Shown here: in pieces, positions 10,852-38,100 of the stretch | Layout of the letters: each line of letters begins with the position of its first letter | Position numbering within the stretch: position 1 is the first letter of the stretch | IMG/VR virus record: IMGVR_UViG_3300010389_000007 | Location: 1-64,000 of that record | Source of the DNA: a virus | Strand: one strand, 5' to 3' | Length of the DNA stretch: 64,000 bases | The notes under the pieces: generated by a model | Told to the model about the DNA's origin: nothing | Databases searched by the model: none | What the model saw: only the letters and a program-made list of their open reading frames with translations | Made by a program: the position numbers and the translations under genes

Positions 10852-11097
10852 CTATGAGTCTTCTTGAAGATCTGGATGAGGTGCATACAAAGGACCTTCA
10901 TAATCATGAGATTCCTCAGGAAGGCCATCACCATCCTCCTCTACATGAGTGTCAATATTAATAGTAAACTCTTCTACCTGAAAGTCTGTCTTGATTCCTG
11001 CATGGATCATCTGGGAAAGTTCTGTGAGCGACTGCTGGCATTCTGCCAATGAACCCTCACAAAACACCCTGTCTCTTGCAATCAACTTGTAGGGCAT
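10852..11097 (-). CDS. Hypothetical 81-aa acidic protein
   Basis: Starts MPYKLIARDRVFCEG with a strong GGAGG ribosome site. The second half is acidic (THVEEDGDGLPEESHDYEG). It overlaps the end of the upstream gene by 16 nt. No family is recognised. Confidence 0.65.
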   Translation of the reverse strand: MPYKLIARDRVFCEGSLAECQQSLTELSQMIHAGIKTDFQVEEFTINIDTHVEEDGDGLPEESHDYEGPLYAPHPDLQEDS

Positions 11098-11330
11098 TTT
11101 TTACCTCCAAAAAATTTTTTCTTATAATGGGACCCAATTATATTTAATCCCTCCCACAGGCAAATTCCAATATAACTGAACTCATCCAAGGGGCTGGTCT
11201 CTGTGCCATACACATCATTATAGAGCAACCTTACAGGGGATTTTTCACCCCAGAAAATTTTTTTAATCACTTGAAATATCTCTCTCTGTTTCAAAGTTTT
11301 GTAGGTTAGGGATGTTTGCTTTTTTCGCAT
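11082..11330 (-). CDS. Hypothetical 82-aa basic protein (start uncertain)
   Basis: The frame begins MRKKQTSLTYKTLKQ and is Lys/aromatic-rich, with FSYIGICLWEGLNIIG near the C-terminus. I chose the ATG at 11330, which lies ~46 nt downstream of a strong sigma70-type promoter. The frame stays open further upstream (to 11459) and would encode a CxxC-x8-CxxC pattern, but that extension runs through the promoter and the CACTGAGA repeats, so it is probably not translated. Just before the start, TTACCC/GGGTAA can form a hairpin that includes the purine-rich region. Confidence 0.4.
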   Translation of the reverse strand: MRKKQTSLTYKTLKQREIFQVIKKIFWGEKSPVRLLYNDVYGTETSPLDEFSYIGICLWEGLNIIGSHYKKKFFGGKKCPTS

Positions 11331-11375: not shown

Positions 11376-11404
11376 ACTATAGCATAGATCACACATTTTG
11401 TCAA
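11376..11404 (-). promoter_or_regulatory. Strong sigma70-type promoter flanking the repeat block
   Basis: TTGACA (11399-11404), 17-nt spacer, TATAGT (11376-11381), with an extended TGC before the -10. It reads left, away from the DnaA-box/CACTGAGA cluster that starts 9 nt upstream. Confidence 0.75.
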
Positions 11405-11412
11405 CCCCTTGA

Positions 11413-11738
11413 CACTGAGACCCACACATTTCACTGAGACTAACACTGAGATTCCACACTGTTTTATACTGTTTTCCACAAGTTTTCCACAGAATTATAC
11501 ACAGTTTTCCACAGGTTTCTTATACTGAGTTTCACTGAGATTGTGTCACTCACTGGTGTCTCACTGTTTTATCACTGAGACCTGTGGAAAACTATAACAC
11601 TGTGCCACTAATTTGGGTGTCCTGGGGGTGTTGACTTCTGGGAGGGTTTGTGATACAATGGGGGCCAAGATCACTAGACTATGAGACATTTACTGTGTTT
11701 TCCACAAAATATACAATAATTGTGGAAACTGTGGAAAA
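11413..11738. repeat. Origin-like non-coding block: DnaA-box-type repeats and CACTGAGA repeats
   Basis: There is no convincing gene from about 11331 to 11798. Perfect TTTTCCACA boxes occur at 11472-11480, 11483-11491, 11505-11513 and 11698-11706 (plus) and 11583-11591 and 11730-11738 (minus); 11721-11729 is a one-mismatch copy. TTTTCCACA is the DnaA-box form described for cyanobacteria. CACTGAGA occurs at 11413-11420, 11432-11439, 11444-11451, 11533-11540 and 11573-11580. The copies at 11698 and 11721 form a 9-bp inverted repeat. Two divergent sigma70-type promoters frame the cluster. An origin of replication or a DnaA-titration/regulatory site is my inference. Confidence 0.7.
11631..11659 (+). 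promoter_or_regulatory. Plus-strand sigma70-type promoter in the repeat block
   Basis: TTGACT (11631-11636), 17-nt spacer, TACAAT (11654-11659), with extended TGA before the -10. It reads right, against all neighbouring genes. No plus-strand gene follows, so the product would be a non-coding, antisense or primer-type RNA; two DnaA-type boxes forming a hairpin lie in its first ~70 nt. Confidence 0.65.
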
Positions 11739-11798
11739 CTCAACTATATTTAATTTGACATTTTTATTGATTCCAACATATCTTACGGAAGACACATT

Positions 11799-35100: not shown

Positions 35101-38100
35101 CCTTGAGCCCCTTGTCTACCCTGAGCACCTTGAGAACCTTGGGGTCCTAAGAATCCTTGAGCACCTTGAGCACCTACAGCACCTTGTCTACCCTGAGAAC
35201 CTTGTCTTCCTTGTGCACCCTGAACACCTTGGAATCCTTGTGGTCCAATAGCACCCTGAACACCTTGGGATCCTTGTCTACCTTGAGCACCTTGGAATCC
35301 TTGGGCACCTTGACGACCTTGTGCACCTTGAACTCCTTGGAATCCTTGGAATCCTTGTGGTCCAATAGCACCTTGTCTACCCTGTGCACCCTGAGCACCT
35401 ACAGAACCTTGTCTACCCTGAGCACCTTGAACACCTTGTGAACCCTGCCTACCTTGGAATCCTTGAGCACCCTGAGGTCCTTGGAATCCTTGAGCACCTT
35501 GAGCACCTACAGCACCTTGTCTACCCTGAGAACCTTGTCTTCCTTGTGCACCTTGAGCACCTACAGTTCCTTGTCTTCCTTGTGCACCTTGAACTCCTTG
35601 GAAACCTTGAGCACCCTGAACTCCTTGGAATCCTTGTGCACCTTGAGGTCCAATAGAACCTTGAGTTCCATTTGTTCCTTGTACACCTTGGAATCCTTGA
35701 GCGCCTTGAGGTCCAATAGCACCTTGAACACCTTGAGCACCTTGTCTTCCTTGTGCACCTTGGAATCCTTGTGCACCCTGAACACCTTGGAATCCTTGTG
35801 CACCCTGAGGTCCATTTAGAGGTTGTGTCCACTTAACACCAGTTCCTGTAGATGCAAGAACAGAGTTTGCAACACCTACAGTTCCTGGAGTATCATATAG
35901 AGGTCCATTGATCTTTAGATTTGTTGTAGTGGTAAATCCAGAAGATCTAATATCATGAACTCTAATGCTTGGAGTTAGAGTTACAATTCCAGAAGATACT
36001 GATAGGTTAGTGGAATCAAAGGATGCAATACCTTTTGTAGAGCTTGTTGCTAATGTATGGGTGTTGCTAGTTACTCCAACAACCCTACCATAAGCATCTA
36101 CAGTAAGATGTGAAATAAATTTGTCAGTCCCTGCAGATAGAGAAGTAACAGGAGTTGATACAGTTGCCAGATCAATATCATCAGGATTAATTACAATTCT
36201 TAGAGTGCTTGCAGTTCCAACATTAAAGTCTGCACCAGAATCATATAAACCAAGACCAGCACCTTTCTGAGATGGTGATGAAATCTGAGTAAATTCAATT
36301 GCAGAAACACCAATTGCAAGTGCATAAGTGTCTCTGGTAACAAGAGCAAAACCTTTTCCTTGCTCTTCTACACCACCAATAATGAAAGCAAAGTCTCCAG
36401 TTTCAATTTCCCCAACTTGGTCATAGTCACTAGCTCTTGTTAATTCCCAAGAAGTTGATCCATTACCAACTCTGGTTACAGTGTAGAAACCATTTTCATA
36501 TAGATTTGTCTGCTCTTTAATTAGGATTCTTTCATCTAAGAATAAAGTGGTATCATCAATGGAAGTTGTACCTACACCAACACCATAGAGTTTTGCTCCA
36601 ACACCACTAGCGCCATTATCATAATTTGAAACTAAGTTAATTGTAGATCCAAGAGAAACTGCCTTCTGAACCTGAATGCCTTGTGCAAAGGCATCAACAT
36701 AATTCTTGGATGCAAGTTCTGCATTTTGTAGAGGGATTTGCTCATTGACAAATACTCTATCAACATAAAGATTGCTGCTGATTCCAACATCACCCTTGAC
36801 CTCAAGGGTTCTTGTCATTACAGAAGTATTAACACCAACCTTGTTTGTAGAATCATTGAAGTATAGTTCAGCACCACCAAAGTCTCCGCCATCATTATAT
36901 TGAATCTGACCATCAGCACCGCCTGGAGTTACATCAACTGTGATGGTTACACCAACTCCAGTTCCATCATTGGTTGCAGTAATATACTGTCCAACAAAGT
37001 TGAGTGCAGTTACACTTCCTGCAGTACCTACAATAGATCCTTCATCTTTAATGGTTAGACCATTGAAGTTATTGACTGTTGCAAGTGGAACCCAATCAAC
37101 ACCAGTTCCAGTTGAAATTAGAACTTCATTAGCATTACCAGTTTCTGCATTTCCATCATACAATCCACCAGAAACATAAAGACTGTTGGTTGCAGTTACA
37201 ATACCAGCAGTTACATCACCATTCAGTGCACCAGAGAATCCACCAGTGGATGTTGTGACTCCAGTGATCTGAACTCCATTGTTTGTGGTCTCAAATTTCT
37301 TGGATCCGTTGTAGTAGAGTTCTACTGCACCATCTGTGATGAATTTTGCTTTAGTTTCAGTTCCATTGGTATTTTTTACTTCTAAATTATCAGCATTGAT
37401 ATTAAGATTTCCAGAACCAGTTTCTGAAATAATAGAATTATTATTGGAAGAGTTGTGGAAAATCTGTAAGTCAGTACCATCACCAAATCTCAATCTATCA
37501 TCATCACCAAGATTTACATTACCTTGGAATGTAGAAACACCAGAGACATTCAGTGATGTGATTCTTGCATCAGCAACTGTACCAACACCAGAATAATTGA
37601 GATCTGTACCAGACAGAGTTGTTACAATACCAGTAACTATTCTTGCTTCTGTTGGTACATGGAGGTTGGTTACTGTTCCTGTTGTTGATGAAAGTGTGGT
37701 TACAATACCAGAAACAATTCTTGCCTCTGTAGGAACATGCAGTGTTGGTGATGTAGTTACTCCTGAAACCTTGAGAGTATTTGCAATAACTACATTATCT
37801 GGGAGTCCAACTGTAACTGTAGCACCTTCACCAGTACCAGTAACTTCAATTTCATTTGTAGTTCCAGAAACTGATTCAACATAATCTCCAGTAGTATCAG
37901 TTCCAAGTTCTACTGAGTTTGGTTGAATAGTTGCTGCAAAAGATACATTACCTGTGCCATCAAAGCTAATGGGAGAAGCAAGTATATCTCCAGTAATTTG
38001 GAAAGTTCTTGCTGTTTCTAATTTTGTTGCATCTGTTGCTAATCCTGCATTAGCAGCATACACAGCATAAGTTGCTATATCTGCATTAGTTGCTATTCCA

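Follow-up and report, generated by a model that had tools for sequence, protein, structure and literature searches.

A conserved promoter-linked DnaA-box locus and candidate replication origin in T4-like cyanophages

Features of the locus

The window, that is, the whole stretch of DNA analysed here, comprises bases 1–64000 of an IMG/VR virus record of 84,834 bp that is itself incomplete. Judged by the baseplate genes gp25 and gp6 (8614–6327) and their best relatives, the window belongs to a T4-like cyanophage of the Kyanoviridae; the closest isolate gp6 shares just 54% identity with that of the window. The features of the locus are listed in Table 1. A first-pass annotation had described six exact copies of TTTTCCACA, in both orientations, and the near-copy TGTGGAAAC in ~270 bp, and the counts bore this out. 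Six of the seven exact copies in the whole record sit in 267 bp (11472–11738), the seventh lies within the window at 37454 on the minus strand, and none occurs beyond the window. The expectation is 1.39 copies per 64 kb, and at least seven were reached in none of 100 dinucleotide shuffles; six copies inside ~270 bp far exceed chance.

Table 1. Coordinates of the features of the locus in the window.
Feature	Position	Strand	Remarks
Small ORF, MRKKQTSLTYKTLK...	about 11082..11330	-	leftward; from the ORF list; related ORFs translated in several relatives, degraded in some
Leftward sigma70-type promoter, TTGACA-17-TATAGT, TG before -10	11376..11404	-	promoter scan, 11/12 match
Five CACTGAGA copies	11413, 11432, 11444, 11533, 11573 (span 11413..11580)	+	specific to the window's sublineage
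Partial box TTCCACA	11452..11458	+	left end of the array; many relatives have full boxes further left
DnaA box TTTTCCACA	11472..11480	+	upstream array, -180
DnaA box TTTTCCACA	11483..11491	+	-169; 11 bp from the box at 11472
DnaA box TTTTCCACA	11505..11513	+	-147; 22 bp from the box at 11483
DnaA box TTTTCCACA	11583..11591	-	opposite orientation; -69 (-80 where the relatives' spacer is 11 bp longer)
Rightward sigma70-type promoter, TTGACT-17-TACAAT, extended -10 TGTGATACAAT	11631..11659	+	promoter scan, 10/12 match
Conserved core GATACAATGnnnGCCAAGATCAC, the -10 box and beginning of the transcribed region	11652..11674	+	exact pattern in 38 IMG/VR stretches; wider Kyanoviridae by profile
Conserved ACATTTA, transcribed strand	11686..11692	+	alignment of relatives
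A+T-rich stretch, possible unwinding element	11690..11790	.	downstream of promoter and boxes
DnaA box TTTTCCACA	11698..11706	+	+46; member of the downstream convergent pair
Near-copy of the box, TGTGGAAAC	11721..11729	-	read from sequence
DnaA box TTTTCCACA	11730..11738	-	+78; member of the downstream convergent pair

The CACTGAGA repeats fared differently. The five exact, clustered copies were found as annotated, but a reading as general iterons was not supported. The window has seven copies against 3.9 expected, a number that 7% of shuffles attain, so that the clustering (five of seven copies at this locus) is unusual and the overall number is within chance. Since most relatives hold 0–3 copies, a role as a conserved iteron was rejected and the repeats are lineage-specific.

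Two outward-pointing sigma70-type promoters had also been annotated as perfect. The 17-nt spacing and the TG before the -10 were found in both; the matches, at 11/12 and 10/12, fall short of perfect. The TGTCAA...ACTATA of the leftward promoter recurs at the corresponding position in many relatives, and this promoter can serve the small leftward ORF. The rightward promoter reads into the element, as judged from the promoter scan and the alignment of relatives. As the annotation had remarked, it has no evident gene to serve: no sizeable rightward gene lies downstream in the window clade. The isolates S-8S53/55/56 carry a gene directly downstream on the same strand as the promoter, and there the element may be an ordinary gene promoter or have a regulatory role.

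Other repeated sequences were seen in the window. Seven small minus-strand ORFs (12426, 13366, 13918, 14797, 15375, 18327 and 19970) have a leader with TATGCTTACAGCATG in common, which is probably an early promoter/start cassette present in several copies. At 34.0–35.8, 38.2–38.9 and 47.1–47.9 kb there are dense short repeats, CCTTGAGCACC and its relatives, which are likely to be low-complexity or collagen-like coding repeats.

Conservation of the element among Kyanoviridae

A blast search of phages with the whole element returned a short S-PRM1 match over the rightward promoter, along with short microvirus matches that were taken for chance. A 66-nt core query found S-8S53/55/56 and S-SM2. 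The pattern GATACAATGnnnGCCAAGATCAC was used to search IMG/VR, and the 38 stretches obtained were aligned. The aligned elements share the order TTGAC, a 17-nt spacer with the extended -10 TGTGATACAATG, GCCAAGATCAC, a variable stretch, ACATTTA and a TTTTCCACA/TGTGGAAAA pair. In most of the 38 stretches the boxes stand at -201/-179/-168/-147, followed by a reversed box at -69 and then by +76/+99. Other loci of the window clade have the upstream box set 11 bp further out, about one helical turn, and the sequence between the boxes is far more variable than the boxes themselves. Among 28 distinct relatives the rightward promoter is nearly invariant, its -10 part having belonged to the search pattern, and the initial transcribed sequence is strongly conserved. 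In a set that includes loci retrieved with boxes as bait, the density of CATTTA is 6.0 per kb downstream, compared with 0.47 per kb elsewhere and, on the opposite strand, 0.64 per kb.

When a DnaA-box pair pattern served as bait, many other phages and bacteria matched. Box clusters alone are thus not specific, and the enrichment figures given below were restricted to loci collected without regard to boxes. The box-blind anchor was a neighbouring protein (10745–9993), 78–80% identical between the window and four isolates. Where this protein is at least 86% identical, the box cluster is present wherever there is enough upstream DNA, except at L295, L297 and L014; neither cluster nor core was found at the former two, and L014 has the core and no boxes. 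The promoter is likewise kept without intact boxes at L036, L046, L024 and L030. Relatives more distant by the anchor protein gave weaker core matches in unchanged orientation. A profile search yielded 199 loci with 165 distinct elements. The element adjoins gp25/gp6 and mostly opposes the flanking genes, and all above-background profile hits lie in one orientation. The DnaA-box cluster is a recurrent feature of a family-wide Kyanoviridae locus and no peculiarity of one phage. Tandem repeats of ~22–33 bp, transcribed and located just downstream of the core, were observed at L022, L024, L030, L316 and L480.

Among isolates, the profile detected the element in S-PRM1, S-8S55, S-CAM9, S-SM2, S-SKS1, Bellamy, S-SSM7, S-SRM01 and DSL-LC02. 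The match in Sf-CH5 was below significance, and the element was not found by profile in S-T4 or in P-SSM2, where gap and locus were both checked. The core is accompanied by one to three boxes in S-SM2, S-SKS1, DSL-LC02, S-PRM1 and S-8S53/55/56: S-SKS1 has TTTTCCACA, TTATCCACA and TTATCCACA in 21-bp steps, S-SM2, with its element at 58.08 kb, two boxes 21 bp apart, DSL-LC02 a convergent pair and S-PRM1 a single box. In Syn9, where the element is placed at 52.57 kb, the core match is weak and a convergent TTTTCCACA pair is found at the same locus ~120 nt further on. This pair lies inside gp86, a small annotated ORF of Syn9 (NC_008296, 52477–52635) that may be spurious. In the 180.8-kb relative G001, taken as complete from its 138-bp end overlap, seven of the eight TTTTCCACA copies are at the element. 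L331, L052 and L120, of one other lineage, have the same 22-11-21 four-box array, reversed relative to a promoter-like sequence.

The enrichment was measured in 92 non-redundant box-blind elements (72.7 kb), which contain 179 copies of TTWTCCACA where about 2 are expected. The background in the rest of the loci is 0.030 per kb, and a reversed control pattern has an equal background rate. At least one copy is present in 50 of the 92 elements and at least two in 47; at the W position, 165 copies read TTTTCCACA and 14 TTATCCACA. Spacings between same-strand neighbours tend to be multiples of 10.5 bp (n = 65, 22 distinct patterns, R = 0.85), with a p-value that is too small because the elements are related. 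A phased array of host-type DnaA boxes is, by these counts and alignments, carried by the window's lineage and several others.

The remaining 42 elements have no box, and DnaA is therefore not essential family-wide. Some of them have TCTCGWCGAGA or GCGCAGG repeats upstream instead, an arrangement that would fit a swappable binding module. Arrays of the TCTCGWCGAGA palindrome were seen upstream of the core at L316, L326, L334, L362, L372 and L480. This motif occurs at 0.62 per kb upstream of the core against 0.011 per kb elsewhere and could serve the locus as an alternative binding site. Clusters of 6–12 DnaA-type boxes within 400 bp were also noticed in viral contigs that lack the cyanophage core (L075:6892, L067:1764, L064:6063 and L117:11759).

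The candidate binding protein and tests of origin function

The cyanobacterial DnaA box, which has been footprinted, is TTTTCCACA/TTWTNCACA, and domain IV of Cyanothece DnaA preferred a pair of perfect boxes with a 2-nt gap to a pair of imperfect ones with a 10-nt gap (PMC4674748). The boxes of the window at 11472 and 11483 show the 2-nt arrangement. In 23 loci of the Vulcanococcus family of picocyanobacteria, all 23 copies of TTWTCCACA in those loci lie in the 800 bp upstream of dnaN, the usual place of oriC in cyanobacteria. The 9-mer thus marks this region in the host family, which supports host DnaA as the binding protein. Its earlier identification as the cyanobacterial form of the DnaA box agrees with both the published consensus (PMC4674748) and the dnaN-upstream test. 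None of six phage records, among them the incomplete one of the window, yielded the DnaA domain PF08299, and in the isolate annotations no dnaN adjoins the element; G001 has genes for a DnaB-like helicase and a family-B polymerase. Taken together, these sequences make binding of host DnaA to the array likely. Searches of the open literature returned no report of DnaA boxes in cyanophages; a mention in the Syn9 genome or transcriptome paper is possible.

Other signs of an origin gave mixed results. An inflection of GC skew, proposed in the first-pass annotation as a mark of the origin, is absent at the element in the five complete genomes inspected (Syn9, S-SKS1, DSL-LC02, S-SM2 and G001). The T4 origins oriA and oriC likewise lie outside skew shifts (PMC3016281). 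Across 86 relatives, A+T content is about 0.70–0.74 at +100 to +220, and the least stable 60 bp is downstream of the promoter in 95% of the elements. Compared with its own genome, the downstream stretch is exceptional in S-SM2 (P = 0.002) and S-SKS1 (P = 0.025) and not in G001 (0.68), DSL-LC02 (0.18) or Syn9 (0.12). In the window an unwinding element that is a genome-wide extreme was rejected (P = 0.15), and the window's clade shows no clear sign of a strong unwinding element. A search with the covariance models of Rfam 15 produced only two sub-threshold MIR396 matches (20 bits, the gathering score being 80), and folding of the gappy element alignment gave no structure.

Interpretation of the locus and its implications

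We lean, on balance, towards reading the element as a replication origin that is linked to a promoter, conserved among T4-like cyanophages (Kyanoviridae) and assisted by host DnaA; at the least, it would be a promoter locus that binds host DnaA. The promoter, the boxes with their phasing and host-type sequence, the synteny and the lack of a phage DnaA can be read from the genomes compared. The first-pass proposal of a candidate origin keeps the support of the host-type boxes, their concentration, phasing and conservation and the link to a promoter, and loses that of the CACTGAGA iterons and the skew inflection. Early in infection, unmodified host RNA polymerase would start rightward at the extended -10 promoter, at a position predicted near 11666, and transcription would pass the DnaA-box pair and enter the A+T-rich stretch. 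Cooperative binding of host DnaA to boxes that flank the promoter on either side and are separated by one, two or three helical turns would bend or melt the DNA and stabilise the opened region. The transcript could then prime leading-strand synthesis before the phage's own T4-type replisome takes over. From this arrangement we infer that DnaA binds in vivo, that the strands open, that the transcript acts as primer and that the element is active as an origin.

Titration of DnaA and transcriptional control both appear less likely than an origin. In the latter case host DnaA would be an activator or repressor of both the rightward transcript and the leftward promoter, and the locus would not fire as an origin, the rightward transcript being a non-coding RNA or, in some genera, that of a downstream gene; transcription would then be coupled to the replication state of the host. 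Fixed box positions on both sides of the promoter, the strongly conserved initial transcribed sequence and the same-strand gene in S-8S53/55/56 are compatible with this account, as is the regulation of transcription by DnaA in E. coli (PMC4674748). The window clade, however, has no sizeable gene after the promoter and Rfam gives no match at a meaningful score, and we regard transcriptional control alone as unlikely, though deserving of attention. A decoy that titrates host DnaA and halts host chromosome replication as phage copies build up is a distinctly improbable alternative. Perfect boxes are dense, and in nearly all of the examined genomes of the host family the region upstream of dnaN has fewer of them than a phage locus. 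Nonetheless, titration needs neither a single syntenic site, nor a promoter amid the boxes, nor a conserved distance, and many relatives keep the promoter with one or two boxes or none.

The remaining accounts concern what recognizes the repeats. If a phage-encoded protein bound the 9-mer, its likeness to the DnaA box would be fortuitous. The unrelated TCTCGWCGAGA and GCGCAGG repeats at the same place in other lineages look as if binders differ, but the exact host consensus is kept, including the permitted T/A change (165 TTTT and 14 TTAT), and it is this 9-mer that marks the region upstream of dnaN in the host; we consider such a binder rather improbable. The convergent pair TTTTCCACAG...CTGTGGAAAA could also act in RNA, as a hairpin or terminator with a stem of about 10 bp, and most of the window clade has the downstream pair in inverted orientation. 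This reading is weakened by the direct repeats of S-SKS1 (three boxes 21 bp apart) and S-SM2 (two), by the single box of S-PRM1 and by the absence of a following U-tract, which leave an RNA structure with very little credibility.

The proposed DnaA-assisted origin has partial parallels in known systems. T4 oriF (uvsY) and oriG consist of a promoter with an A+T-rich DUE downstream and are primed by an R-loop (PMC3016281). The cyanophage element resembles them as a short promoter-linked element of a T4-like phage with A+T-rich DNA downstream. The T4 origins, however, have a MotA middle promoter and no DnaA boxes have been described there, whereas the cyanophage element pairs host DnaA boxes with an extended -10 promoter of sigma70 type. 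According to PMC2984593, motA is missing from cyanomyoviruses, which are presumed to rely on host sigma70 early on. The iterons of T4 oriE, direct repeats of 12 nt at even spacing, have no assigned role and keep their synteny among close relatives (PMC3016281). The cyanophage repeats are similarly phased, direct and syntenic in a T4-like genome; unlike those of oriE, they are host DnaA boxes, which gives a candidate binding protein. Cyanobacterial oriC beside dnaN also has TTTTCCACA clusters, including two boxes 2 nt apart (PMC4674748), but here the genome is that of a phage with its own helicase and polymerase, a promoter is interleaved and neither dnaN nor dnaA is nearby. At the phage lambda ori, host DnaA sites by a phage promoter influence origin firing (PMC3985674 and references therein); lambda has its own initiator O and iterons, and the likeness is a functional analogy only.

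A wider claim, which we hold tentatively as somewhat short of probable, is that a family of T4-like phages, whose model T4 begins replication independently of the host initiator, recruits host DnaA at a single promoter-linked origin in which promoter and leader are conserved and the binding module (DnaA boxes, TCTCGWCGAGA or GCGCAGG) is swapped between lineages. If this is true, phage replication would respond to the replication state of the host. Cyanomyoviruses are abundant in lakes and oceans. Experimental mapping of the start site and mode of their replication appears to be absent, and a single theta origin has only been predicted, for Syn9, according to a review (PMC2984593). The locus described here provides a precise position that is open to testing in isolates for which laboratory hosts exist (Syn9, S-SM2 and S-SKS1), together with a named candidate protein. 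Should it act as a DnaA-assisted origin, the replication of lytic phages would be tied to the host's own replication initiator.
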